A stretch of 46,278 nucleotides of DNA from an uncultured Rhodospirillales bacterium. GTDB taxonomy: Bacteria; Pseudomonadota; Alphaproteobacteria; Azospirillales; Azospirillaceae. The stretch covers positions 1 through 46,278 of the forward strand of contig CAIOBP010000208.1 in assembly GCA_903856295.1 (NCBI GenBank). The letters are read 5' to 3'. The position numbers and the translations under genes are program-made. The notes under the pieces were generated by a model. The model had not been told where the DNA came from. It did not search any database and worked only from the letters and a program-made list of their open reading frames with translations. Positions 1 to 42,535 of this stretch are shown one piece after another; the stretch's first letter is position 1, and each line of letters starts with the position of its first letter.

Positions 1-1
1 C

Positions 2-124
2 GAGGGCATCAACAGCTTGGTCCAGGCAGCCAAGGCCAAGGCACGGGGATACCGCTCTACCCGCAACCTGGCCGCGATAATCTACCTCGTCGCCGGAAAG
101 CTAGAACTCAAGCTACCCACGTGA
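2..124 (+). CDS. ISL3-family transposase, C-terminal fragment
   Basis: An open frame enters from the left edge and ends at TGA 122-124. Its 40 residues include EGINSLVQAAKAKARGYRST and IIYLVAGKL, which match the end of ISL3-type (IS204/IS1001/IS1096/IS1165) DDE transposases; the first Glu is probably the catalytic one. The rest of the gene lies outside the window, so I cannot say whether the element is intact. The stop codon sits inside the inferred right terminal repeat, as is usual in compact insertion sequences. Confidence 0.8.
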   Translation, partial: EGINSLVQAAKAKARGYRSTRNLAAIIYLVAGKLELKLPT

Positions 125-139
125 AACAGCGAAGAGCCC
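118..139. repeat. Right terminal inverted repeat of the ISL3-type element
   Basis: The sequence CGTGAAACAGCGAAGAGCC, read in reverse, begins GGCTCTTCGCTGTTTCA. This is the usual kind of terminus for ISL3-family elements, which start with GG and are rich in CTCTTC. It overlaps the transposase stop, which supports the assignment. The left end and the 8-bp target duplication cannot be checked here. Confidence 0.6.
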
Positions 140-329
140 ACCAATTGCTGCCGAATTCTCATATAATCAAACACCAAACCGCATAGTCCTTCACATATTC
201 TCTCCAGACCGGCCTCCACCTAAATCTGTCTTCCTGACCTTCGCCGTAACCTTCGGCACAGCCTCCGCCCGTCGAACGACGATGCAAATCGGCTTGCAAG
301 ATTTCTGATCATGTTTCACCCTGTGCCCC

Positions 330-353
330 ATGCTTTCTCGTATCTGAAAGCAT
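330..353 (-). terminator. Hairpin downstream of the phasin gene
   Basis: A perfect 8-bp stem (ATGCTTTC / GAAAGCAT) with an 8-nt loop lies about 38 bp past the phasin stop. No T-run follows on the minus strand, so it could be a Rho-assisted stop or an RNA-stabilising hairpin. The rest of 140-390 shows no gene I can support. Confidence 0.3.
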
Positions 354-390
354 TGCGGTCACAGGATGCTGACAGGCTGGCTCTGAACGC

Positions 391-828
391 TTACTTCTTC
401 GCGACCTTGACGACAGCCGCCTTTACCTCATCGAGGCTCTCGCTGACCCGCTTGGTGATAACGTTGGCGGCTTCCGTGTTTGACTTCGTGACCATGTCCG
501 CTAGTTCCTTCATGTTCGCCAGAGCGCCCTGGAAGGCAGTCTGAACCACCTCTGCCTGCTTTGCGAGCTTGGCTTCAGGGACGCCAGGAACCATGATCTC
601 GCTGGCGACAGTGCGGGCTTGCTCCATGGACCCCTGGAGGATTTCAGCCTGCCGCTTCATCACGGCCTGGACGCCAGCGATCACAAGCTGATTGGCTTCG
701 GTCAGGGCTTCAATGTTCTTCTTTTGGGCAGCGATCATCGGCTCAAAATCAACGCCAGGAACCTTAAAATCGGCGAGCAGTTTGGTGATGTCGGTCTGGA
801 ACATTGGGAAGGCAGTGGGCTTGGACAT
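391..828 (-). CDS. Phasin family protein (polyhydroxyalkanoate granule-associated)
   Basis: This 145-residue, all-helical protein has a phasin_2-type pattern: a short N-terminus with FPMFQTDITKLLADFKVPG, then long amphipathic helices (IAAQKKNIEALTEANQLV) and a Lys/Ala-rich tail ending in VAKK. Phasins coat polyhydroxybutyrate granules and control their size and number. The start has AAGGAA about 9 nt upstream. No PHA synthase or depolymerase gene is nearby; the neighbour is an IS end, so the gene sits apart from its usual cluster. Length and composition are typical of the family. Confidence 0.85.
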   Translation of the reverse strand: MSKPTAFPMFQTDITKLLADFKVPGVDFEPMIAAQKKNIEALTEANQLVIAGVQAVMKRQAEILQGSMEQARTVASEIMVPGVPEAKLAKQAEVVQTAFQGALANMKELADMVTKSNTEAANVITKRVSESLDEVKAAVVKVAKK

Positions 829-1084
829 GTAGGCATTCCTTGTGACGATGGTCGATTACGAGCTGGGCTGGAAATTGCGGCATCCCAACGACTGGACTGA
901 CCAACCCACCCTTAACGGATCGTTGCTATCTGACGCGGGCGCATGGGTCAAGAATAATGGTGCGTCGCAGCATGACGTGTGCTTTAGCGTCTGTAGGGCG
1001 GGTTGCCATTCTCAAAGAGTCCTTGTCGCCGGTACGAGTATCTATAACATGCTCAGGCACGGCTTCGGAAACCGTGCATCCGCA

Positions 1085-1423
1085 TCACGCAATCGCCCGA
1101 GCATCTTCTTGGAGCCGCTTCTTTTTAGTATGTGGTTTTTTGAGTAAACTCTCTCGTCGGATAACTTCGCATAGCTTATCTGTAGCATCATCAATCAATT
1201 GTGCCTGCTCTATCTCGTCTGATGTCTCAAGTTCCTCGTGAAGATTAACAAGGCGATTATACAACCCTAGCATTACATCTAAAGCCGGAGGATGGCCAGA
1301 AATCTTCATCCATGAATATATCCTTGCTGTCCTTCCCAAATAATCCCTCGAATATTGATTTTCAGATTTTACAATACCTAGTGACTTTAGTAATCTGTAT
1401 ATTTCATGTAATTGCTGATTCAT
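1085..1423 (-). CDS. Small helical protein of unknown function (DUF6626-like)
   Basis: The product has 112 residues and no signal peptide or membrane segment. The first 60 residues (IYRLLKSLGIVKSENQYSRD, then YLGRT and PPALDVMLGLYNRL) resemble small alphaproteobacterial proteins annotated as DUF6626, in which a Phe/Tyr-Ser-x-x-x-LGR motif is followed by helices; the family call is from memory and tentative. The C-terminus is basic (KKPHTKKKRLQ). GAGG lies 8 nt before ATG. The gene is much more AT-rich than the core genes of the window and lies beside a long non-coding AT-rich stretch, which suggests horizontal acquisition. Confidence 0.6.
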   Translation of the reverse strand: MNQQLHEIYRLLKSLGIVKSENQYSRDYLGRTARIYSWMKISGHPPALDVMLGLYNRLVNLHEELETSDEIEQAQLIDDATDKLCEVIRRESLLKKPHTKKKRLQEDARAIA

Positions 1424-1585
1424 TATGGCGCCTCGCTTTTATTTTATTATTAACTTTGTCTTTCTAAGTCGTTTTGCATATTTGCCAATGCATCTTTTGA
1501 TTTACATAATTCCAAATGCTTACATTGTATCTTATCGCCAAATTCAACATCTTTAGAATGCTTTGTTGCTTTTCACGATCACTAG

Positions 1586-2321
1586 AATAATATTTTATGA
1601 TAGTAGTGGAATATTATTGTCATGGAATTATTTCCTTATAATCTCCTGTTATTATAGGTATTTATCACTTTGAGATCAATATAATACGCTACCAAAGTAT
1701 GATTTGGTTTCATTATTTATTTAATAACTGAACAGGAAAAGTGATTGTTGGTTTTGTGAGCGAAGTTTACGAGCGATCTAAAAACCAATAATCACAGCAT
1801 CCAATCCGGAGCAGAGCGGAGGATTGGTGCTCTATTATTTTACCAATATATTAGCATCACAACTTCGCTACGCTTCGTTGTGAGTGCTGATCGAGTGAAT
1901 TTGCCTGTCATTCCGCTAACGCTACATTCCGCAAATTACCTCGATCTCTTTCCCTTCGGACCGATTATAAATTCTCAGGAAAGCAATCTTTGATTGCGTC
2001 TCAATGCGGCATTGTTGAACAGATTGCTTTTTCCCCCCAGGCCATGATATGAGCATAACTCATACACTTTGGCCTGGAGGAATAACAACTACATGCGTAT
2101 AACGTCTCACGAGTTGCTTTGTTATCGATCTCAAACAATTTGGTGGTTAGCATTTACCAAATCTCAATCTCTTTCCCGATTATTTCTAATCCTAACGGGT
2201 GGAATATCATGCCTAACAAATCTGGAATGATAACTCATTGCTGTTGCCAAATTCACAAGGCAGAGCAGCATTCTTTTTATCAAAACGGAGATTTCACCCC
2301 CGTATTGGCAGACTCTCTGCC
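1586..2321. other. AT-rich non-coding stretch with an array of consecutive stem-loops
   Basis: Positions 1424-2794 contain no convincing gene. Within them I see non-overlapping inverted repeats one after another: 1586-1618 (9 bp), 1741-1795 (15 bp, one G.U if read on the plus strand), 1797-1830 (10 bp with a bulge), 1853-1888 (11 bp with a bulge), 1889-1946 (14 of 16), 1980-2030 (10 bp perfect, with an inner 6-bp hairpin at 2002-2014), 2037-2077 (8 bp perfect, with an inner 6-bp hairpin), 2082-2125, 2138-2162 (7 bp), 2178-2191, 2205-2232, 2237-2271 and 2307-2321. Stem sequences differ, so this is not a tandem repeat. It may be a large structured RNA, but AT-rich sequence makes short stems common by chance. 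Confidence 0.45.
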
Positions 2322-2352
2322 CACACAGAGATTTCTCCCTGCGATGGCAGTC
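2287..2352. repeat. Imperfect direct repeat, two copies
   Basis: Two copies of a roughly 26-bp unit start near 2287 and 2326 (period about 39 bp). They share AGATTTC, a C-rich centre, TGGCAG and CT. The first copy also forms a 6-bp hairpin with its spacer (GGCAGA / TCTGCC). Two copies with a short spacer do not make a CRISPR array. Confidence 0.45.
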
Positions 2353-2751
2353 TATGTTTATGGTGGCGCACCGCATAATAAGGAAGTCCTCTCGGGCCTT
2401 AAGATGTTTCTTTCCACGCGATCCGGCTATCTAGATCTCATCCCGACGGTATCGTATTCCCCCGAGGTTTTAGTATTGGACTAGCCACGGTATATATAAA
2501 CTCTTCGTATAATCAGCTATTATACACGCTATCGATTTAGCGGCATATATTTTATTTATGCCTTGATAATAAATTCTGGAAGAAGATAATCCATGTATTA
2601 TTCGCATGACAGTCATAACATGGCCGCATACATGATAAACAATCTATCCAGATGTTCAATATTGCGAATTAGTGAATTTGTTTGTTTCTAATTAATACCG
2701 AATTTTGAGTCTCATATCTATGGGGTCTGTATACACCGATGCTGAATATAG

Positions 2752-2786
2752 CATGTGGCCGACTCCAACGTGGAATCGGCCACATG
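2752..2786 (-). terminator. Strong hairpin downstream of the 2795-3253 gene
   Basis: A 15-bp stem with a single mismatch (CATGTGGCCGACTCC / GGAATCGGCCACATG) and a 5-nt loop lies 9 bp beyond the stop codon of the minus-strand gene. No uninterrupted T-run follows (CTATATTC), so intrinsic termination is likely but not certain. Confidence 0.5.
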
Positions 2787-2794
2787 TTAAAAGC

Positions 2795-3253
2795 CTACTT
2801 CAAACCCTTAACAGCCACCTCCTTCACCGCCTTCTTGCCACGTTTGATCGAACCCAATTGCGAATCGAGATCGCCGCTCTTCGCAGCTTCGATCACCCCG
2901 TCAAGGACCGTGATTACGTCCTCGACGGTCGGAGCAATGATCGCCTCAGGAAACAGGGCAGCCGCCCCGTAACGGAGCACAACGACATAACGGTTGCCGT
3001 CCTTGCTCCACCACCGCTTGAACTTCAGAGCCCGCTCGACCGGCTGTCCACTTTCCTTGTCCTTCCTGACACCGGTATGAACGAACGATCGATTCGCCAG
3101 TTCCGCCTCCAAGGCTTCGATCTGGAGCTGGACACCCTCGATGAAACGGCCACGTCGATGCAGGACGGGGTCGGCATTCTGAGGCTTGGTGGCGGCACCG
3201 ACCTGAAACTTGCTCAGGGCGCTGCTCTTTTTTAGAATAACTGCGAGTTCCAT
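2795..3253 (-). CDS. Hypothetical protein (DUF6641-like)
   Basis: The predicted product has 152 residues. The start is placed at ATG 3253 because GGAGAG lies 6 nt upstream; longer in-frame starts lack a ribosome site. The sequence has a basic N-terminus with DPVLHRRGRFIEGVQLQIEA, a central KRWWSKDGNRYVVVLRYG block, and a helical tail ending in a Lys-rich stretch. The FKRWWxxDGN...LRYG pattern recalls proteins annotated DUF6641, though I hold that only loosely. No catalytic motif is visible. It is an isolated gene in the AT-rich accessory region, followed by a strong hairpin. Confidence 0.65.
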   Translation of the reverse strand: MELAVILKKSSALSKFQVGAATKPQNADPVLHRRGRFIEGVQLQIEALEAELANRSFVHTGVRKDKESGQPVERALKFKRWWSKDGNRYVVVLRYGAAALFPEAIIAPTVEDVITVLDGVIEAAKSGDLDSQLGSIKRGKKAVKEVAVKGLK

Positions 3254-3659
3254 GTGGCTCTCCATAGTTTGTGAGGGCCATACGGTATGCTCTCCGTCCG
3301 TTAGATCTATTGAAATCTGAGTAAGGACCTTGCGAAGATTAATCAAAGATCATAATAAAACAATGACAGATGCTTAATAGCATTCACCATCCTAGATAAT
3401 TGTGATTATCATATACTCAGATTACACTCCGTACATAGTCGAGTGATCTTTCAGATGAGATATGGGGCCAAGCACCTTGCGACGGATCGCGCCTTTCATT
3501 AGGGTCTTCAGCGGCGCCTCCGAGCAGCCCCAACCAGTATATGTTAGGGACAGGTTATGCAGTTTTCTGACCGATGCAATTTTCCAAGCAAGATCAATGG
3601 GTTGCATCGAGTCGGTTAGGGGGTGCCGCCAAAATGAGCTCTAACATATTGATATTATT
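3254..3659. other. Intergenic region without a supported gene
   Basis: This AT-rich stretch marks the transition from the accessory segment to GC-rich core DNA at about 3690. A 61-codon minus-strand frame at 3422-3607 has no clear ribosome site or recognisable family and may be a decayed gene. I see no clear promoter. Confidence 0.5.
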
Positions 3660-4754
3660 ATGACAAATATTATCGTTGCTAACAACATGATCATGGAGAA
3701 TGAGACCGCGCACGTCCTTCAGACCTGCCGGACTCTGGAGGCGTTCGCGTCCATCGGCTGCGCGGTGACCTATCTCTGGCCCTCCTATGGCCGGATCGTG
3801 CCCGAACTGGCGCGCCTGCCGATCGATCTCCGGCCGGTGGCCTGCCGCACCCGTCACGGCAAGGCCCGCTACGCCGAGTTTCTGGCCCGCCTGCTGCCGG
3901 CGCTCAAGGGGCTGGTCACGCCGGATACGGTGGTGATGACCCGCAGTCTGGGGGTGGCGCTGGTTGGGCAGGCGGTGGCGCCCCGGCTGGTGCTGGAGCT
4001 GCACAAGGACCTGAAAGCCTTGGCGCGGCTCGCGGTGCCACTTTTGAGCCGGCGTATCCGTTGGGTTGGCATATCTGGAAGTTTGCGGGATCATCTGATA
4101 AGTGCTTATGGCGTGCCGCCGGCCCATGCCGCCGCCTGTCACGATGCCGTCGATTATCCGGTGTTTGCCGGCGCCGAGCCGGTGCCGCTGGCCGAGCGGC
4201 CGCGCCCGGCGGCCGACACCCGGCTGGTTCACCTCTATTACGGCACCCTCAGGCCCGAGCGCGGACTGAGCCTGATCGGGGTGGCGGCCAAGGCGCTGCC
4301 GGATCATGGTTTCGTGCTGATCGGCGGCGGCGAGGCCGAGGTTGCGGCGGCCCGGGCCGGCGGCCTGGATTTGCCCAATGTGCTGGTGCTGCCCGCCGTG
4401 CCCCACGACCGGATTCCCCGGCTGCTGCGCTCCTACGACAGCGTGCTGCTGCCCTACACCCGCGACGTCGGCACCCATCAATGGATGTCGCCGTTGAAGC
4501 TGTTCGAGGCCCTGGCCAGCGGCACGCCGGCCGTGGTCAGCAAGCTCGGCCCGATCGTCGAGGTGGTGGCTGACGAGCATGTCAGCTTCATCGATTGCGA
4601 CCGGCCGGAAAGCCTCGCGGAAGCCTTGGTTGCCCTGGCCGCCGACCCGGCGGCCGCCCGCGCCAAAGCCGCCGCCGGACAGACCGCGGCTTTGGCACAT
4701 CACACCTGGGAACAGCGCGCCCGCGACATTCTGTCGCTGGCCGGGGCGGCGTGA
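3660..4754 (+). CDS. Glycosyltransferase family 4 (GT-B) protein
   Basis: This 364-residue cytosolic GT-B enzyme probably transfers a sugar from a nucleotide donor in polysaccharide or glycan synthesis. The N-terminal Rossmann half begins IIVANN; the C-terminal donor half contains LVHLYYGTLRPERGL, the GGGEAE loop and SPLKLFEALASGTPAVVSK, which carries the family's E(x7)E-type donor-binding segment. The first ~25 codons and the upstream DNA are AT-rich, with no good Shine-Dalgarno before 3660; an in-frame ATG at 3687 is an alternative start. It stands alone, so acceptor and sugar cannot be predicted. Confidence 0.8.
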   Translation: MTNIIVANNMIMENETAHVLQTCRTLEAFASIGCAVTYLWPSYGRIVPELARLPIDLRPVACRTRHGKARYAEFLARLLPALKGLVTPDTVVMTRSLGVALVGQAVAPRLVLELHKDLKALARLAVPLLSRRIRWVGISGSLRDHLISAYGVPPAHAAACHDAVDYPVFAGAEPVPLAERPRPAADTRLVHLYYGTLRPERGLSLIGVAAKALPDHGFVLIGGGEAEVAAARAGGLDLPNVLVLPAVPHDRIPRLLRSYDSVLLPYTRDVGTHQWMSPLKLFEALASGTPAVVSKLGPIVEVVADEHVSFIDCDRPESLAEALVALAADPAAARAKAAAGQTAALAHHTWEQRARDILSLAGAA

Positions 4755-25427: not shown

Positions 25428-27692
25428 CTAGCCGGAGAAGGCGTATACCGCCGTGGTGACCGCCAGCGAACAGGCCACCAGGAAGATCCAGCGCGCGGCC
25501 TGTTCGACCTTGAGCGCCTTCGGCGGCTGCCCCGCCGCCCGGAACCGCTCGGCCGTGACCACGACGAGCAGGCAGAACAGGCAGAGCAGGAAGAAGGTGT
25601 AGAAGAGGTATTCGACATCGACGACATAGCCGACATTGCCGAGCTGGGTGTTGGTCGAGGACAGCAGCACGGAGCCGGTCAGCGCGCCGGTGATCACGGT
25701 CGCCACGCGCGGCATGACGTTGCCGGCCGGGAAGAACAGGGTGACGAACATGATGAAGCACAACAATCCGAGCGGCAGGATGGTTTTGCTCAGCGTCGGC
25801 AGGCTGAGGCGGTGGATGTCCACCGTGACCGCGAAGCCGGACAGTTCGCGCACCCCTTCGGCGCCGAGCCGCCTCGGATCGCCGAGCGGAGAGTTGGTCA
25901 GCAGGATGTCCCGGCTTTCGGCGGTGTGGCGGACGCTCCACTGGGAGAGGTTGTGGAACGCGTCGGCGGCGATTCGTCTTGCCGTGCTTTCGCTTTGCTC
26001 CGGCGTGGCGGCGGCGGGCACGGCCGGGCTCACCGAGGCGCGGCGGTCCAGGGCGTAGACCAGCCGGTCCGAAGAGGCGCGGGCGTTGAAGAACCGCACC
26101 GCCAGGGTCTGGCGGTCGGCGGGGAAGTGACGGAGGTCGAAGTCGTTCTTGAAGTCGCCGCGCACCTGCCAGAGACGGTACGAGGTGCCGTCGGGCAGTT
26201 CACCCTGATCGGCGAGCCGCTTGGCGTCGAACGTGCCGTGGACCATCTCGGGGAACTCGATCTCGGTCGGGTCGACCGCTCCGGGACCGGCGCCGTGGCC
26301 GAAACGCAGCCACAGGTAGAAGTCGGCGGTGAAGGTCGACTGGGCGACATCGACCCGGGGCACCTTGTTCAGGTAAATGCCGGAATAGACCACCTGCTGG
26401 CGCCGGGCATAGCTGCCGGCCCCGGTATCGACCAGGGCGCCGGAGGCGATGTCTTCCGGAGCGGGGCGCGAGACCGGAATCAGCTGCAACGGCGCCGATT
26501 CGACCATGCCGCCATGGAAGCGGCCGATCCGCACCGCCTGCTTGCGGCCACGGTCGGCGGTGAACCACAGTGGCCCGGTGATGCCGGACAGCGCGTTGGC
26601 GGGGCTGTCGAGCGCGGTCAGGAAGGCGCGCGCGGCGTCGCGTCGCGTCCGGATGTCGGGTTTGCCCGCGGCGACCGCGGACCGTACCGCCGCCATGACC
26701 ATGCGCGCGGTGTCGAAGGCCTGGACCGAACGCCATGTCGGATCCTGGCCGTACCGCTGATGGAAGCGATCGGCGAAGGCCAGGGTCTCGGCGCCGGCGC
26801 TGTCCATGATCATCGGCGTCGCGGCATAGACGCCGTCGGTGAAGAAGCCGGGAGTCTGGCGTTCTTCCGGCTCGTCGGCGAACAGCTTGGCGAAGGAGTC
26901 GGTGGCGATGGTGCTGGTGCCGAGAATCGGGCCGGTGACGCCGGCACGGCGGAGGGCGGCCAGGATCGGCCTCGATTCGTCGAACAGCGAGGCCAGCACG
27001 ATCGCCGGGTGATCGGGAAGGGCGGCGGCGTCCTGCGCCGCCTTCAGAGCCTCGGCGGGGGTGCTGTAGGAGAAGCCGGTGACGCCGATGCCCAGATGGT
27101 CGCTGGCCCGCTTGAACCCGATCGCGACCGGACGGCCGAAGGCGCTCTCCTTGAAGATGACCACGGCCTTTTTGCCGCCGATGACGTGGCCCAGATAGTT
27201 GGCCAGCGCCTCGCCCATTTCGCTGGTGCTGAACAGCGGACGGAAGGTGGTGGGGTTGGCGGTGACGATATCGCCATAGGCGGTGGGCACGATCGAGGCG
27301 ATGCCGGCCTCGCCATAGATCGGACCGGCGACCACCGAGAGGTTGGTCAGGCCGGGACCGACGACCATCAGGGCGTCGCTGTCGACGATCTGCTTGGCGA
27401 CCGCCTTGCCGCCATCTTCGGTGCCGTGATCGTCATGGACCACCAGTTCGACCGGCGGGACGGCGCCGGTGGCGTTCGACTCGTCGACCGCCATCCGCAG
27501 GGCATCGAGAATCTGTTTATCGACGGTGGCGTTGGCGCCGGTGAGCGAGATGGCCACGGCGACCTTGGCCGTCGGCGGCTCGGCGCAGGCCGGACGCGGG
27601 GCGAACACCGCGCCAATGCCGAGCATCGCGCAGCAATATGAAACAGCCAGCAGGACTCGCGCTGCCCCGCAGCGACGCCGTGTGTGACTCAT
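25428..27692 (-). CDS. Periplasmic-binding-protein domain fused to a pentameric ligand-gated ion channel
   Basis: The predicted 754-residue protein combines two receptor modules. After a signal peptide (SYCCAMLGIGAVFAPRPACA), residues ~40-400 form a type I periplasmic-binding domain of the branched-chain-amino-acid kind (KVAVAISLTGANATVDKQIL, DSDALMVVGPGLTNLSVVAG). Residues ~430-625 match the extracellular beta-sandwich of Cys-loop-type channels, including the Pro-loop DFDLRHFPADRQTLAVRF near residue 525 without the disulfide cysteines. Residues ~632-754 hold four helices, the first containing TILPLGLLCFIMFVTLFFP. The start is ATG 27692 (CGGAG upstream); GTG 27710 is an alternative. An inner-membrane ligand-gated ion channel is expected; ligand and ion selectivity are unknown. 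Confidence 0.88.
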   Translation of the reverse strand: MSHTRRRCGAARVLLAVSYCCAMLGIGAVFAPRPACAEPPTAKVAVAISLTGANATVDKQILDALRMAVDESNATGAVPPVELVVHDDHGTEDGGKAVAKQIVDSDALMVVGPGLTNLSVVAGPIYGEAGIASIVPTAYGDIVTANPTTFRPLFSTSEMGEALANYLGHVIGGKKAVVIFKESAFGRPVAIGFKRASDHLGIGVTGFSYSTPAEALKAAQDAAALPDHPAIVLASLFDESRPILAALRRAGVTGPILGTSTIATDSFAKLFADEPEERQTPGFFTDGVYAATPMIMDSAGAETLAFADRFHQRYGQDPTWRSVQAFDTARMVMAAVRSAVAAGKPDIRTRRDAARAFLTALDSPANALSGITGPLWFTADRGRKQAVRIGRFHGGMVESAPLQLIPVSRPAPEDIASGALVDTGAGSYARRQQVVYSGIYLNKVPRVDVAQSTFTADFYLWLRFGHGAGPGAVDPTEIEFPEMVHGTFDAKRLADQGELPDGTSYRLWQVRGDFKNDFDLRHFPADRQTLAVRFFNARASSDRLVYALDRRASVSPAVPAAATPEQSESTARRIAADAFHNLSQWSVRHTAESRDILLTNSPLGDPRRLGAEGVRELSGFAVTVDIHRLSLPTLSKTILPLGLLCFIMFVTLFFPAGNVMPRVATVITGALTGSVLLSSTNTQLGNVGYVVDVEYLFYTFFLLCLFCLLVVVTAERFRAAGQPPKALKVEQAARWIFLVACSLAVTTAVYAFSG

Positions 27693-27893
27693 CAACGACT
27701 CCGTTTTCACAATTCAATCGGATCGGGTCCCGACCCCGTCCCGCCGCCGTCGGCGCCGGCCGTCGGGCGCCAAACCAGGACGAGGGGGAAGGGGAGCACC
27801 GTAAGAGAGCGATCATCGCTCAATGGCACAGGCGTTGCCAGTGTCATCTTCAATGTGTCAGCTTTAACGAAAGCCCGCGCGGCCCTGTTCGCC

Positions 27894-29624: not shown

Positions 29625-30032
29625 ATGTTGATTGAATGGAATGATTCGCTCTCTGTGGGAAACGATAAGATCGACCACGATCATCAGGTGCTGATCGACA
29701 TTCTCAACGGGCTGGATGATGCGGTCAATGCCGAGCATGGCAAGGAGTTCATCTCAGGAATACTGTCTGAGTTGTCGGATTATGTGGTCTACCATTTCGA
29801 GCGTGAAGAGCAGCTCATGCGGCGGCACCATTACCCGGATTCTGCTGCGCATGTGCAGCAGCACTGTGAGTTGATCAGCGGGCTGGATGCGCTCGTTTAT
29901 GAGTTCGAGTCCTCACCCAATACCGTGACCGCCGACACCCTGATCTTTCTGAAGCACTGGCTGATCGATCATGTCAAAGGATGCGACATGAGACTTGGGG
30001 GCTTCCTGCGCCGGAACCACGACTGCTCATAG
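29625..30032 (+). CDS. Bacteriohemerythrin
   Basis: The 135-residue four-helix protein has the diiron ligands of the family: His in KIDHDHQVLIDILNGL, HFEREEQLMRRHHYP (H-x3-E-E... H), HVQQHCELI and the closing HWLIDHVKGCDMRLGGFL (H-x4-HVxxxD). It should bind O2 and may store, deliver or sense it, as in microaerophilic and magnetotactic spirilla. GAGAAG precedes the start. The gene is less GC-rich than the region before 29 kb. It converges on kup. Confidence 0.92.
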   Translation: MLIEWNDSLSVGNDKIDHDHQVLIDILNGLDDAVNAEHGKEFISGILSELSDYVVYHFEREEQLMRRHHYPDSAAHVQQHCELISGLDALVYEFESSPNTVTADTLIFLKHWLIDHVKGCDMRLGGFLRRNHDCS

Positions 30033-30041
30033 TACTCATGG

Positions 30042-30056
30042 GCGGTTTGTAACCGC
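30042..30056. terminator. Hairpin between convergent hemerythrin and kup genes
   Basis: GCGGTT-TGT-AACCGC forms a perfect 6-bp stem in the 40-bp gap between the two stop codons. There is no T-run on either strand, so strength is uncertain. Confidence 0.4.
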
Positions 30057-30072
30057 GGCGATGCGATCTTCG

Positions 30073-31953
30073 CTAAACATCGACCCGCAGGCCGATCTCG
30101 ACGATCTTCTCATCCGGTATCTTGAAGTAATCAGATGGCCTTGCGGCATTGTTGCTCAGAAATGTAAAGAGCATGCGCTCAAACCCCTGGAGGGATTTCT
30201 GTGAATCGGTGCCAACGATCCGTTCGTGTCCCATGTAATATCTGATCTTGTCGGTGTTGCACGGCAATCCGAGCTTTTCCAGGCTGGCCATGATGACGGG
30301 CACGTTGGGGGCCTGCATGAAGCCGTAGCGCGCCTGGACTCGCCATAGCCCCTCCGCCAACTCGGTTACCGACAGGCGGTCTTTCGCCAAGATGCGGGGA
30401 GATCTTTCACTGATAATATTAAGGATAATGACATTCCGGTGAAGAACCCGGTTGTGAGCGGTGTGGGTGAGCAGGGTTGACGGAATACCTGTTGTCTGTC
30501 GCGACAGAAATATGCTGGTTCCTTCGACGCGGTGTAACGAATCCATCGTCAGGGTAAAGTACTCAACTGGCACGGTCAGTGCGTCGAGGTGTTTGAAGAT
30601 GACGCGCGAGCCTTTGTTCCAGACATACATGATATAAAATATCAAGGCGCTGATCACCAGCGACACCCAGCCGCCATCGATGGCCTTTCCAAGGCAGGAG
30701 GCGCTGAATATGATGTCGATCACGATGAATATGCCGGAAATCCCCAGGACAAGCAGCGGATTCCATTTCCATTTATTGCGCATGGTGTAATACAGCAATA
30801 TGGTCGTCGCCAGCATGGTCAGCGAGACGGCGGTGCCATAGGCGCCAGCGAGAGCGTCGGACGTCTTAAAGCCCAGCACCACGGCAATGATCATCACCAG
30901 CAAGAAATAATTAATGGTTGGAAGATAAACCTGCCCGACGCCGGAGGCCGATGTTTGGACAAAATGAATGCGCGGCAGCAAACCCATGTTGCATGCCTGT
31001 TGGGTCAGCGAAAATACCCCGGAGATCAGAGCTTGCGACGCGATGATGGTCGCGCCGGTCGCGAGAATGACCAGCGGTATCAGGGCAAAGTCTGGAGCCA
31101 TATGATAAAACGGATTGGCTATTTCGCGCGGGTCCATGGAGACGAGGGCCGCTTGACCAGCATAGTTCAGGACCAAGCATGGGAAAACGCAGAACATCCA
31201 TGCCGATTGGATCGGGCTGCGGCCAACATGTCCCATATCGGCATATAACGCTTCGCCCCCGGTGACCGCGAGGAAGACTGCGCCCAGGATTGCAAATGAC
31301 ACCGAGGTGTTCTTCAGAAGAAGATGAAATGCGTAATAGGGATTGATGGCAAGCAAAATTTGGGGAAACTTGAGAATCTGGATCAGGCCAAGCGCACCGA
31401 TTGTTGTAAACCAAACCAGCATGATTGGCCCAAAATATTTCCCGATATACTCCGTCCCTTTGTGCTGAACCATGAAGAGGGCTATGACGATAATGATGGT
31501 GATCGGTATGACGTAGGCGGCCAGGGAGTTGGTGATGATTTCAATGCCTTCCACCGAGCTTAAAAAAGAAATGGCCGGGGTTATGATCCCGTCTCCATAA
31601 AGCAATGTCGCCCCAAACAAGCCGATTAAAAGTGGCGCTCCGCCCTGACGAAATGAGAGGTGTGACTGCCATGGAATGGCGGAGGTCAGCAATGCGAGAA
31701 TGCCGCCCTCTCCTTGATTGTCCGCCTTTAGGACAAAGCTGATGTATTTGATGGAAACAGTCAGGATAAGGGCCCAGATGATCAGGGATAGGACCCCAAA
31801 GCATTCCTGCTCCGTTGGAGTCTGGGAGCAGGCCTCAATGGCAGCCCGAAAAGCATACAAAGGCGATGTGCCGATGTCACCATACACAATCCCTAGTGCA
31901 ATCAGGCATGATGAAAGTCTCGATTTGCCGTCTTCACCGGTCACGATGTCCAC
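30073..31953 (-). CDS. kup: Low-affinity potassium transporter Kup
   Basis: The 626-residue protein has about 12 helices in the first 440 residues and a cytosolic C-terminal domain. It opens with LIALGIVYGDIGTSPLYAFR, the Kup/HAK/KT hallmark, followed by NQGEGGILALLTSAIPW, LYGDGIITPAISFLSSVEGI and GGEALYADMGHVGRSPIQSA. It imports K+ with protons. The first codon is GTG 31953; GTG 31944 has AGGG 8 nt upstream and may be the true start. Codon use is noticeably more AT-rich than in neighbouring core genes. It starts 24 bp after an acyl carrier protein gene. Confidence 0.92.
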   Translation of the reverse strand: MDIVTGEDGKSRLSSCLIALGIVYGDIGTSPLYAFRAAIEACSQTPTEQECFGVLSLIIWALILTVSIKYISFVLKADNQGEGGILALLTSAIPWQSHLSFRQGGAPLLIGLFGATLLYGDGIITPAISFLSSVEGIEIITNSLAAYVIPITIIIVIALFMVQHKGTEYIGKYFGPIMLVWFTTIGALGLIQILKFPQILLAINPYYAFHLLLKNTSVSFAILGAVFLAVTGGEALYADMGHVGRSPIQSAWMFCVFPCLVLNYAGQAALVSMDPREIANPFYHMAPDFALIPLVILATGATIIASQALISGVFSLTQQACNMGLLPRIHFVQTSASGVGQVYLPTINYFLLVMIIAVVLGFKTSDALAGAYGTAVSLTMLATTILLYYTMRNKWKWNPLLVLGISGIFIVIDIIFSASCLGKAIDGGWVSLVISALIFYIMYVWNKGSRVIFKHLDALTVPVEYFTLTMDSLHRVEGTSIFLSRQTTGIPSTLLTHTAHNRVLHRNVIILNIISERSPRILAKDRLSVTELAEGLWRVQARYGFMQAPNVPVIMASLEKLGLPCNTDKIRYYMGHERIVGTDSQKSLQGFERMLFTFLSNNAARPSDYFKIPDEKIVEIGLRVDV

Positions 31954-31977
31954 CCTGAACAGAATATCACGATGCGC

Positions 31978-32262
31978 TTACATCTCGATTTGCTTGATTT
32001 CAAGATGGACATCAACCAAATGGACGATATCGTGAACGCATCGCATTTTCCCCCAATTTTCGTCGGAAATTTTTATATAGAACCAATGCTCCGTTGCAAC
32101 TTTAATCGACTCCAGGTCCGATTGCCCGGCGCCAAGTTCGTCAACAATGTCAGTTTCGGATCTAATGCTCTGGAGCTCGACTCCCAACTCTTCAGAGATA
32201 ATGCGCTTTACATCCATGTTGATGGTGGCGATGTCAACAATCTGGTTCAGTTGAATGCTCAT
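31978..32262 (-). CDS. Divergent acyl carrier protein
   Basis: The 94-residue acidic protein has the ACP pattern VKRIISEELGVELQSIRSET, then DIVDELGAGQSDLESI. The usual DSL phosphopantetheine site is replaced by GQSDLES, one residue longer, but a serine (about residue 49) is in the right place. The second half (HWFYIKISDENWGKMRCVHD) matches the ACP helix III-IV region. GGAGGAGGAACA before ATG 32262 is an excellent ribosome site. It is not beside any fatty acid or polyketide gene; kup follows closely, so a specialised role is likely. Confidence 0.7.
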   Translation of the reverse strand: MSIQLNQIVDIATINMDVKRIISEELGVELQSIRSETDIVDELGAGQSDLESIKVATEHWFYIKISDENWGKMRCVHDIVHLVDVHLEIKQIEM

Positions 32263-37364: not shown

Positions 37365-37631
37365 TTGAATTCGCCCCAAGCCCATGCCGCGGCATCGGGC
37401 CGGCGGGATGGCGGCGTGCCGGGACTGCGCGGTTGCGCGGCAGAAGCGCCGTGGCGGCCCCCAGACGCCTGACCGGCAGCGACAAAAAATTTGTTGCCAG
37501 AGGCCGCGGCGACGGCCCTAAATAGCCACCGAGCAATATGCCGGATGAGGCGCTGTCGCGGCGCCCTCCGCCGATGGTTGGTATCCCGAATCCATACGGG
37601 CAAAAAAACGCAATCCAGGGAGGTCGTCTAC

Positions 37632-38852
37632 ATGAAAACAGTAACGGTGATGGTCTTGGCCGGTGCTCTCGTTGGGAGCATTGCCTTTGATGCCCAGGCT
37701 GCCGATACCTTCAAACTGGCGATAACCGGTCCCTTCTCGGGCGGCTCGGCGCCGATGGGTGGTTCGATGCGCGATGGCGCCAAGCTCGCGGTGGCTCAGA
37801 TCAACGAGCAGGGCGGCTTCGAGGTGGGCGGCCACAAGATGAAGGTCGAGCTGATCGAGCGCGACGACGAGGCGAAAAATGAGCGCGGCGCGCTGATCGC
37901 CCAGGAACTGGCCTCGCTGGAGGGGCTGTCGGCGGTGATCGGCTCGGTCAATACCGGGGTGGTGCTGGCCGGCGACAAGTTTCTCCAGGAAAAGAAGATC
38001 GTCAAGATCATCACCCCCGCCGCCGGTTCGGCCTCGATGACCCAGTGGGTCAATCCGCCGGCGCAGGACCTTTACATCTTCCGCTTCGCTGCCGCCGACG
38101 GCATCCAGTCGGCGATGGTGGTCGAGGAGGCGGGGCGGCTCAAATTCACCAAGGTCGCGGTGCTGCACGACGCCACCAATTACGGCGTTTCCGGCCGCGA
38201 CGACCTGACCCGCCGCATCCTGGCCGAAGGCAAGATGACCATCGTCGCCACCGACAAATTCAATATCGGCGACAAGGACATGAGCGCCCAGCTGCTGCGC
38301 GCCAAGGCCGCCGGGGCCGAGGCGGTACTGATCTGGGGCATCGGGCCGGAACTGGCGGCGGTCGCCAACGACATGGCCAAGATCGGCTTCAAGGTGCCGC
38401 TGATCGGCGGCTGGACGCTGTCGATGTCCAACTTCATCGACAATGCCGGCAAGAACGGCGACGGCGCCATGATGCCCCAGACCTTCATCGAGGAGCCGGT
38501 GACCAAGGCCGCCACCGCCTTCATCGAGTCCTATCACAAGGCCTATGGCGTCTCCCGGATTCCCTCGCCGGTTTCCGCCGCCCAGGGCTACGATTCGGTG
38601 CTGCTGCTGGCGGCGGCGGTCAAGCAGGCCGGTTCGACCGACTCCACGAAGATCCGCGATGCCCTGGAGGATTTGCGCGAGCCGGTGGCCGGGGTCATCG
38701 CCACCTGGAAGAAGCCCTATGCCAAGTGGGACGCCGCCCATCCCGAGACTCATGAGGCGTTCCGGCGCGAGAACGTGATCATGGGCATGATCAATGGCGG
38801 TCACGTGGGCTTCGCCAATCCGGACGATCGCGCGCGGCTGGGCAATCGCTGA
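37632..38852 (+). CDS. Branched-chain amino acid-type ABC substrate-binding protein
   Basis: The 406-residue periplasmic protein has a signal peptide (MKTVTVMVLAGALVGSIAFD, cleaved after AQA) and a type I binding fold beginning FKLAITGPFSGGSAPMGGSM. SAVIGSVNTGVVLAGDKFLQ and SPVSAAQGYDSVLLLAAAVK are typical of the LivJ/HAAT group. GGAGG lies about 9 nt before ATG 37632; an upstream in-frame ATG at 37491 lacks one. It is the first gene of a four-gene importer operon. Substrate may be a branched-chain amino acid, another amino acid, urea or an aromatic acid; sequence alone does not decide. Confidence 0.9.
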   Translation: MKTVTVMVLAGALVGSIAFDAQAADTFKLAITGPFSGGSAPMGGSMRDGAKLAVAQINEQGGFEVGGHKMKVELIERDDEAKNERGALIAQELASLEGLSAVIGSVNTGVVLAGDKFLQEKKIVKIITPAAGSASMTQWVNPPAQDLYIFRFAAADGIQSAMVVEEAGRLKFTKVAVLHDATNYGVSGRDDLTRRILAEGKMTIVATDKFNIGDKDMSAQLLRAKAAGAEAVLIWGIGPELAAVANDMAKIGFKVPLIGGWTLSMSNFIDNAGKNGDGAMMPQTFIEEPVTKAATAFIESYHKAYGVSRIPSPVSAAQGYDSVLLLAAAVKQAGSTDSTKIRDALEDLREPVAGVIATWKKPYAKWDAAHPETHEAFRRENVIMGMINGGHVGFANPDDRARLGNR

Positions 38853-39857: not shown

Positions 39858-41803
39858 ATGTCCAAGCGTCTCGTCACGGAAGCCGGAACCTTTGCCCTGA
39901 TGGCGGCGGTGCCGTTGTTCGTCGGCGGCAACGCCTACGGCATGGGCTTGCTGACCCTGGTGACCATTTACGCCATCGCCCTGATCGGCCTCGATGTCAC
40001 GGTCGGCTATCTCGGACAGATCAATCTCGGACAAGCGGCGTTCATGGCGCTGGGCGCCTACGCCTCGGGACTGGCCGTCACCGGGCTGGGCTGGAGCATG
40101 GCGCCGGCGCTGCTGGCGGCGGTGCTGGTCGGCCTGATCGCCGGGGCTTTTCTCGCCTTGCCGGCGCTGCGGCTCGAGGGACCGCAATTCGCCCTGGCCA
40201 CCCTGTCCTTCGCCTCGCTGGTGGTGATTCTGCTCAACGAGCTGGAGAGCGTGACCAATGGCGCCCAGGGGCTGTCGCTGGTCCGGCCGCTGCTGTTCGG
40301 GCTCAAGCTGACGCCGGCCGGTTTCTATTGGACCTGCCTCGGCCTGCTCGCCCTGTTGTGGATGGGCATGCGCAACCTGCTGTCCTCCCATTGGGGGCGC
40401 AGCTTCGAGGCGCTGCGCGACAGCCCGATCGCCACCGATGCCGTCGGGGTCTCGGTTTACGGGCGCAAGGTCGCGGCCTTCGCTCTCGGCTCGTCGCTGG
40501 GGGCGCTGGCCGGCGGGCTCTACGCCTTCGACTTCCAGTATTTGCAGCCTGACGGTTTCCGCTACGACCAGATGGTGATTCTGCTGCTCGGGGTGGTGCT
40601 GGGCGGGCGCAAGTCGCTGTGGGGCGCCTTTCTCGGCGCGGTGCTGATCGTGTTGCTGCCCAACCTGCTGTCGTCGCGCCCGGTGTTCGAGGCCATCGCC
40701 GCCATCGGTTTCCTGGCCTCGCTGGTGGCGGCGGGGCGGCGCTGGCGCGAGGAGGGCGGCTTGCCCTTCCAGGCCATCGCCCCGGTGGTCGCGACCGGGC
40801 TGATGGTGCTCGGCGGCTTCCTGGTGCAAAGCCTGGAAGACTGGCGCAAGGCGGTGTTCGCGCTGATTCTGTTCGCGGTGGTGGTCGGGTTGCCCGAGGG
40901 CGTGATGGGCTATGTCGGGCGGACGCTGGTCCGGCTGTTCGGGGGGCGCCGCCGGCCCTTGCCGCCGCCGGCGGCGCTCGACGCCGTGCTGCCGTTCCAG
41001 GAGAATCATGGCGCCGTGCCTCTGGCGGTCTCCGGCCTGTCCTGCCGGTTCGGCGGCCTGATCGCCCTGGCCGGGCTGGATCTGGAGGTGCGGAGCGGCG
41101 AGATTCACGGGCTGATCGGCCCCAACGGCAGCGGCAAATCCACCGCGATCAACGTCATTTCCGGGCTCTATCCGGCGGCGTCCGGGGTGGTGCGGCTCGA
41201 TGGCCGGGTGCTGCCCGGCGGCAGCCTGACCCGCGCCGCCCGGGCCGGCATCGCCCGCACCTTCCAGAATCTGCAATTGTTTCTGGAGCTGACGGCGCTG
41301 GAAAACATCATGGTGGCGTTGCGCCATGTCTACCGCTTGCCGCTGCCGCTGATCATGGCCGGGCTGGGCCGGCGCGAGGAGGCGACGGCGCGCTCCGAGG
41401 CGCTGGCGCTGCTCACCCTGGTCGGGCTCGGCGACTATGCCGGGGTCAAGGCCGCGGATCTGCCCTATGGCACCCAGCGCTTTCTGGAAATCGCCCGGGC
41501 GCTGGCCTGCCGGCCGCGGCTGCTGATTCTCGACGAGCCGGCGGCGGGGCTGTCGTCGCCCGACATCAAGGTGCTGATCGGCATCATGGAGCGGATTCGC
41601 GAGCGGCGGATTCCGGTGATCCTGATCGAGCATCACATGGATATCGTGGCTGAGCTGTGCGACCGCGTCACCGTGCTCGATGGCGGCAAGGTGATCGCCA
41701 CCGGCACGCCCGCAGAGATTCAAAATCATCCGGACGTGATTCGGGCTTATCTCGGCACCATCGCTGGCGAGCGGGCGGGCGGGAGCGAAACGGGGGCGCA
41801 GCC

Positions 41804-41810
<7 letters not shown>
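39858..41810 (+). CDS. Fused ABC permease and ATPase (LivM-LivG)
   Basis: The 650-residue protein joins two normally separate subunits. Residues 1-~365 are a LivM permease (GLDVTVGYLGQINLGQAAFM, RNLLSSHWGRSFEALRDSPI). Residues ~385-640 are a LivG ATPase with Walker A GPNGSGKST near 425, the Q-loop RTFQNLQLFLELTALENIMV, the variant signature LPYGTQRFLEIARALA, Walker B LLILDEPAAGLS and an H-loop in LIEHHMDIVAELCD. The linker is short and basic (FGGRRRPLPPP). With LivH and LivF this would make a complete importer. It overlaps livF. Confidence 0.9.

Positions 41811-42535
<725 letters not shown>

Follow-up and report, generated by a model that had tools for sequence, protein, structure and literature searches.

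Why a type-I periplasmic binding protein (PBP) domain should sit in front of a pentameric ligand-gated ion channel (pLGIC) is the question raised by a 754-residue protein encoded in a 46,278-nucleotide stretch of DNA from an uncultured Rhodospirillales bacterium (assembly GCA_903856295.1, contig CAIOBP010000208.1; the whole stretch is called the window below). A sequence-only reading had proposed such a fusion at positions 25428-27692; these coordinates, the domain order and the Pro-loop were correct, and the strand, which had been left unstated, is minus. Comparison with relatives indicates that the binding domain and the pLGIC-type extracellular sandwich beneath it would form one sensor unit, which is also found on an unrelated pore of the MscS type, and that the window protein itself is probably a solute-gated channel.

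The two halves of the window protein lie in a single unbroken open reading frame (ORF). The host genome is a draft of 255 contigs, which would allow two separate genes to have been joined by an assembly or reading error; however, the same one-frame arrangement is present in eight other loci of the same subtype (L005-L011 and L015) and in 31 PBP+pLGIC sequences (rows) in all, and this explanation was excluded, its probability being negligible. Seven of these relatives (L005-L011) came from a scan of genome contigs, and together with L015 they are 46-78% identical to the window protein. The dN/dS ratio calculated by the NG86 method against L005 and L006 was 0.06-0.22 in every domain and 0.09 and 0.23 over the entire gene, at dS values of 0.8-2.6 that are partly saturated, showing that the window gene is under purifying selection.

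The channel half is homologous to pLGICs. A phmmer search of the PDB with the window protein gave matches from 2e-4 in the transmembrane (TM) region to GLIC chimeras, GABA receptor chains and GLIC, and NCBIfam models matched weakly (LIC 0.021, LGIC_1 0.074). A profile of 11 rows (A2: the window protein, L005-L011, L015, L028 and L029) reached 2.4e-18 with GLIC and 1.4e-19 with a GLIC chimera, sandwich and TM region being matched separately, which bears out the proposed fusion of a binding protein to a pLGIC. Pfam recognised this half in part of the set: at E ≤ 1, PF02932 was found in 9 of the 11 alignment members (best 3.4e-4) and PF02931 in only 2 (best 0.0053). Chance was excluded, as the domain profiles matched none of the control sequences, for which each of 306 frames was reversed once and shuffled ten times. 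Foldseek searches with a model of the channel half found GLIC (1.9e-12), GABA-A receptors and DeCLIC (1.6e-10), and the four C-terminal helices foreseen by the sequence-only reading were placed at residues 629-754 in the models. Judged by homology, the window protein is a member of the pLGIC superfamily, with a homologous sandwich followed by a homologous four-helix pore.

Residues typical of the superfamily were counted over the 31 PBP+pLGIC rows, with positions taken after Jaiteh et al. (PMC4795631). Table 1 of that survey gives the loop as [F/Y]PxD with Pro as the sole absolutely conserved residue, and the survey text available pairs the loop Asp with the pre-M1 Arg. In our rows the Pro-loop Pro and Asp were both invariant (31/31), following Tyr in 23, Phe in 6 and Trp in 2 rows, and the window protein has FPADRQTL at residues 523-530. 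The beta-9 Trp and the pre-M1 Arg were likewise found in 31/31 rows, the M1 Pro and an Arg or Lys at 0' in 30/31 each, and Leu at 9' in 27/31. The residues of the putative gating contact are thus present throughout.

A second strong match of the window protein in its own genome, L002:103-3225:- (contig G000:C90, 1040 aa), carries a different pore. It has Peripla_BP_6 (1.6e-34) and the MscS beta-domain PF00924 (2.7e-17), with the sandwich between them, whereas the window protein itself carries a pLGIC transmembrane domain (TMD). The same order, with an additional C-terminal cyclic-nucleotide (cNMP) domain, was found in the Azospirillum sp. B510 plasmid protein WP_042444963 (L012:5899-9270:+), which is annotated merely as an ABC transporter substrate-binding protein. 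Among the best 30 of 106 records in a tblastn search of plasmids, matches were mainly substrate-binding proteins (SBPs) and Azospirillum matches over PBP and sandwich, and the two plasmid matches inspected closely were both MscS versions. In total, the loci contained 31 PBP+pLGIC and 50 PBP+MscS rows after removal of 8 duplicate loci; L012 and L035 do not differ and perhaps represent a single gene, and two PBP+sandwich frames ending before any pore (L110, L111) were left out of the counts. L002 and L012 were assigned by Pfam scan, and the remaining MscS rows by a model based on 10 of them.

Three comparisons bear on whether the sandwich of the MscS versions is that of the pLGICs. A sandwich-only model built from 8 window-type rows matched 41 of the 306 frames, comprising 11 window-type frames, 2 other pLGICs (L028, L029) and all but one of the 29 MscS frames in that set (28 matches, 1.8e-16 to 2.9e-3; L036 was missed by this model and matched by a broader one), while the reversed and shuffled controls gave no match; a TM-only model matched 13 frames, every one a pLGIC. 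In profile-profile alignment, A2 matched 12 MscS-type rows at 99.6% over 193 columns, reaching the last strands. The 50-row MscS sandwich profile matched three separate PBP+pLGIC lineages at 99.2, 99.7 and 98.9%, and 6 pLGICs without a fused PBP, including the GLIC-like and DeCLIC-like channels of the host genome, at 96.7% (3.2e-10, 109 columns). Reversed and PBP profiles used as controls gave 0.1-5.3%. On these three comparisons, the sandwich of the MscS siblings appears to be the pLGIC sandwich.

The residues of this shared sandwich differ in their retention. F/Y/W-P-x-D is present in all 31 cassette pLGICs, whereas P-x-[D/E] occurs near the loop in 0/50 MscS rows (counted by alignment column; a simple pattern scored 2/50, with both matches elsewhere in the sequence). 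The Asp column is Gly in 44/50 MscS rows, and Pro alone persists in 20/50. The sandwich W-x-R motif keeps both Trp and Arg in 50/50 MscS rows; the pLGIC rows have Trp in 31/31 and Arg or Lys in 31/31. Loss of the Asp is as expected if its task is coupling to the pLGIC pore, and its partner, the pre-M1 Arg, belongs to the pore linker that is replaced in the MscS versions.

In a combined PBP+sandwich tree of 53 rows, hand-thinned from 81, the pore label changes only once, with support of 97/94, a result shared by 98% of 200 bootstrap trees, and in a sandwich-only tree all 50 MscS rows fall on one side (99). The PBPs fused to pLGICs (31), to MscS pores (49) or to an unknown pore (2) stand apart from 9 stand-alone SBPs, including LivJ and LivK, with 98% support. 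As judged from these trees and profiles, PBP and sandwich of the window protein and of its MscS siblings share common descent. We consider it highly probable that PBP and pLGIC sandwich make up a portable sensor cassette, that the pLGIC pore was exchanged for an MscS-type pore once, on one branch, and that a solute in the periplasm would open the MscS versions; as the trees are unrooted, the direction of this exchange is an inference. Since MscS forms heptamers and pLGICs form pentamers, the sandwich would have to accommodate a second symmetry in its ring or else be arranged without one.

Several results weigh against these conclusions. Searched singly, the window protein gave no match to PF02931 or PF02932 at E ≤ 1. 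The structural models were modest (full length, pLDDT 61.5 and pTM 0.41; channel half, pLDDT 62.2 and pTM 0.48; 8 rows each), and among the best 50 Foldseek rows of the channel half the root-mean-square deviation was 8-14 Å with query-normalised TM-scores of 0.44-0.51; because of this high deviation the channel-half model supports the fold only. The M2-M3 Pro is replaced by Gly in 31/31 PBP+pLGIC rows (Gly688 in the window protein), a position that was Pro in 88% and Gly in 3% of the Jaiteh et al. survey (PMC4795631); Pro there is a common feature of the superfamily rather than a defining one. The MscS-type sandwich profile alone matched no pLGIC in the PDB, its sole match being an Mce protein at E 1.7, and for this reason the homology of the MscS sandwich rests on the model and profile comparisons above. 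The sandwich-only tree, built on few columns, splits the 31 PBP+pLGIC rows with 4 changes, and in the PBP-only tree the MscS rows call for 2 changes and the pLGIC rows for 3. Finally, no neighbouring gene hinting at a ligand or pathway was conserved between the window and the loci of the eight relatives, in a comparison of ORFs of at least 90 aa at E ≤ 1e-8 in which several loci were short (L005, L006, L009 and L015, 5-6 kb).

The N-terminal half is a complete LIVBP-like domain, as had been claimed, with Peripla_BP_6 spanning both lobes (117.5 bits, cut-off 31.7). Foldseek ranked LIV-type SBPs first for the full-length model, and at rank 41 (7.1e-12) came a domain of a metabotropic glutamate receptor. 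We then compared the binding site with that of E. coli LivJ, whose amino-acid contacts we take to be Ser79, Thr102, Tyr202 and Glu226. In a MAFFT alignment of these distant relatives, the corresponding residues of the window protein are T, Y, L and S, retaining only the Ser/Thr hydroxyl, whereas L057, L060, L061 and L068 have S, T, N and E. A LIV-like amino-acid site is therefore plausible in the lineage of the latter and less so in the window protein, whose ligand is probably not bound in the manner of LivJ. With the equivalents of Thr102, Tyr202 and Glu226 not retained, the earlier label "amino-acid-type" stands for the fold only and not for the site.

A LIV-type importer is indeed encoded in the window, on the plus strand and about 10 kb from the minus-strand fusion gene, with an SBP (37491-38852), a permease/ATPase fusion (39858-41810) and an ATPase (41657-42535). 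In the PBP tree its SBP clusters with the 8 other stand-alone SBPs on a branch apart from the fused PBPs (98% SH-aLRT), and because of this separate branch it is no evident source of the fused binding domain; given also its distance and strand, it was rejected as source or partner. The importer SBP too lacks equivalents of LivJ Thr102, Tyr202 and Glu226, having G, I and W instead.

How might the binding domain act on the channel? We think it likely that the window protein is a Sec-exported inner-membrane subunit of a probably homopentameric pLGIC-type channel, which a ring of periplasmic type-I binding domains gates in response to a solute. After export via Sec, the subunits would assemble with the binding-domain ring on the periplasmic top; a small periplasmic solute would close the two lobes of the binding domain, the closed domain would shift the sandwich beneath it, and the contact between Pro-loop Asp and pre-M1 Arg would relay the movement to the pore. 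The presence or the absence of the solute would then alter ion flow across the inner membrane. That the same PBP and sandwich occur on another pore supports a model in which these two domains are a sensor unit in their own right.

The classical pLGIC agonist site lies between subunits in the sandwich, which speaks for a different arrangement in which the binding domain just captures or concentrates the solute, or modulates the channel, and the agonist proper binds between subunits. Such a site was proposed for fused PBPs by Tasneem et al., in the sections available (PMC549065), and excerpts of work on DeCLIC report that its N-terminal domain affects gating kinetics (PMC9897478, PMC12664993), as a modulating cap might. 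The MscS versions, however, lose the Pro-loop Asp yet keep PBP and sandwich together, and we regard an inter-subunit agonist as possible, with some doubt. Other alternatives concern the pore. The window protein has no acidic ring before M2, Met-Pro at -2'/-1' being followed by Arg at 0', and just 7 of the 31 PBP+pLGIC rows have an acidic residue at -1' or -2' (L009, L011, L028, L029, L052, L054 and L055, of which L052 is doubtfully aligned there). Because the ring is missing, cation selectivity of the window channel should not be assumed from its sequence; since in prokaryotes the selectivity motif generally does not suffice, according to the part of Jaiteh et al. available (PMC4795631), only this caution is stated. 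Together with the scarcity of acidic residues, the Met-Pro-Arg of the window protein and the Ala-Ala-Lys of L007, L010 and L015, which are similar to the A[R/K] motif of metazoan anionic channels, would suit a channel that is permeable to anions, unlike GLIC. Such a pore, which is compatible with the solute-gated channel preferred here, can be suggested only tentatively, given the same insufficiency of the motif and the Lys-Glu-Lys of relatives L009 and L011.

The missing acidic ring and the invariant Gly in place of the M2-M3 Pro could also point to a receptor that does not conduct at all, in which the channel fold is retained as a scaffold for sensing, for example in chemotaxis; pLGICs of unicellular organisms were, in the excerpted text of Jaiteh et al., without a known biological role as of 2016 (PMC4795631). 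Retention of the 0' Arg/Lys, 9' Leu, M1 Pro and pre-M1 Arg, at the counts given above, and a dN/dS of the TMD equally low as that of the other domains argue against this, making a non-conducting receptor unlikely. We therefore keep the solute-gated channel as the best explanation.

The features of the gene are collected in the table below, in which the prime numbers of M2 come from the alignment to GLIC. The start of the window protein looks like a signal peptide, in line with the sequence-only reading, making this a probable assignment by eye. GGAG at 27699-27702 precedes the start codon by six bases, and a GTG further upstream, at 27710, is in the same frame as the 754-aa ORF. A promoter scan found nothing.

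Table. Features of the PBP+pLGIC gene and its product, in window coordinates
Feature	Positions	Strand	Remarks
Whole coding sequence, 754 aa + stop	25428..27692	minus	ATG at 27692
Probable signal peptide, residues 1-38	27579..27692	minus	RRR, hydrophobic core, ACA|E; judged by eye
Type-I periplasmic binding domain (Peripla_BP_6), residues 42-391	26520..27569	minus	Pfam 1.4e-33; Foldseek 3hut 1.9e-19
pLGIC extracellular sandwich, residues ~431-628	25809..26402	minus	Profile of relatives against GLIC; model strands; Foldseek
Pro-loop F-P-A-D, residues 523-526	26115..26126	minus	F/Y/W-P-x-D in 31/31 PBP+pLGIC rows
Four-helix pLGIC pore domain, residues 629-754	25431..25808	minus	M1 Pro inside; pre-M1 Arg 628 immediately before
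Pore helix M2, residues ~660-683	25644..25715	minus	Arg662 = 0', Leu671 = 9'; Met-Pro at -2'/-1'

On the window side, the neighbourhood comparison returned the gene itself and overlapping frames, plus one weak match (33%) to L005; among the matches listed, neighbours were common to L007, L008, L010 and L015. An operon or conserved neighbourhood of the window gene was rejected, the ORF comparison with the eight loci having shown none. At another locus, a 403-codon frame (L056:234-1442:-, G496:C24) with a sandwich and helices and without the F/YPxD loop directly follows a PBP+pLGIC gene, on the same strand; the two open frames share 26 bases, the likely Met of the second being further on. This loop-less protein is a possible partner subunit of the adjoining PBP+pLGIC, and similar loop-less sandwiches are found in L075 and L086. 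Positions 1-4000 of the window have its lowest GC content (0.47-0.50, against 0.53-0.72 in the other 2-kb bins, with 0.526 at 30001-32000) and are possibly foreign DNA.

Within the order, the cassette was found in 24 of 82 genomes at 27 places, 4 PBP+pLGIC and 23 PBP+MscS. A channel-half search at 1e-5, counting any pLGIC or MscS version, found matches in at least 10 of 385 genomes of the class and at least 46 of 398 of the phylum; these counts are lower bounds because at most 5 candidates per genome were scored, and an earlier class search, which scored 2, can miss cases among the abundant SBPs. Of 289 class genomes, 3 contain PF02931, at 4 places, 2 of which are in the host genome. The host has a GLIC-like plain pLGIC (L112, G000:C192) and a DeCLIC-like channel (L115:1072-3240:-, G000:C98; match to 6v4a at 1.6e-97), so that it combines three pLGICs, each with its own N-terminal arrangement, with one MscS-pore relative. 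Tasneem et al., in the part available, reported that genomes encoding such a gene mostly had just one (PMC549065).

The architecture itself is in print, as the sequence-only reading had held. Tasneem et al. (2004/5) described PBP-I + ART-LGIC fusions in Magnetospirillum magnetotacticum and Bradyrhizobium japonicum (PMC549065); going by the description available, these alphaproteobacterial proteins resemble the window protein in having a type-I binding domain before a pLGIC sandwich and 4-TM pore, and the window gene adds a new case. No functional data on PBP+pLGIC fusions were seen in the parts of the open-access literature searched. GLIC of Gloeobacter resembles the window protein in both sandwich and TM halves but has no N-terminal domain, and it has the M2-M3 Pro and an acidic residue before M2 where the window protein has Gly and no acid. 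DeCLIC, likewise a pLGIC from a prokaryote, also has a large N-terminal domain in the periplasm; in the descriptions available this consists of two jelly-roll lobes, so that the Peripla_BP_6 domain of the window protein is not of the DeCLIC type. LivJ and 3hut share fold and Pfam family with the binding domain but are not fused to a channel, and the MscS siblings (L002, WP_042444963) share binding domain and sandwich but have the PF00924 pore and no Pro-loop Asp. Ionotropic glutamate receptors also carry an N-terminal type-I binding-protein-like domain on a ligand-gated channel; this earlier-noted parallel holds as an analogy, and a relationship was rejected because the pore of the window protein is that of a pLGIC. 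For PBP+sandwich+MscS, no report was found in the open-access full-text literature, subscription papers being mostly outside the search.

Because it has an N-terminal half from a family of soluble binding proteins, the window protein offers a direct route to the physiological ligand of a bacterial pLGIC. Its MscS siblings amount to a natural domain swap that separates coupling residues, such as the lost Pro-loop Asp, from residues of the sandwich itself, such as the retained W-x-R residues Trp and Arg; they also suggest that a sandwich of the receptor type is able to drive an unrelated pore. The proposed exchange would have given MscS channels that bear such a sandwich and, in at least one case, that of Azospirillum sp. 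B510, a cyclic-nucleotide domain as well. The occurrence of one sensor on two kinds of pore in a single genome suggests that the sensors and pores of channels are evolutionarily swappable.

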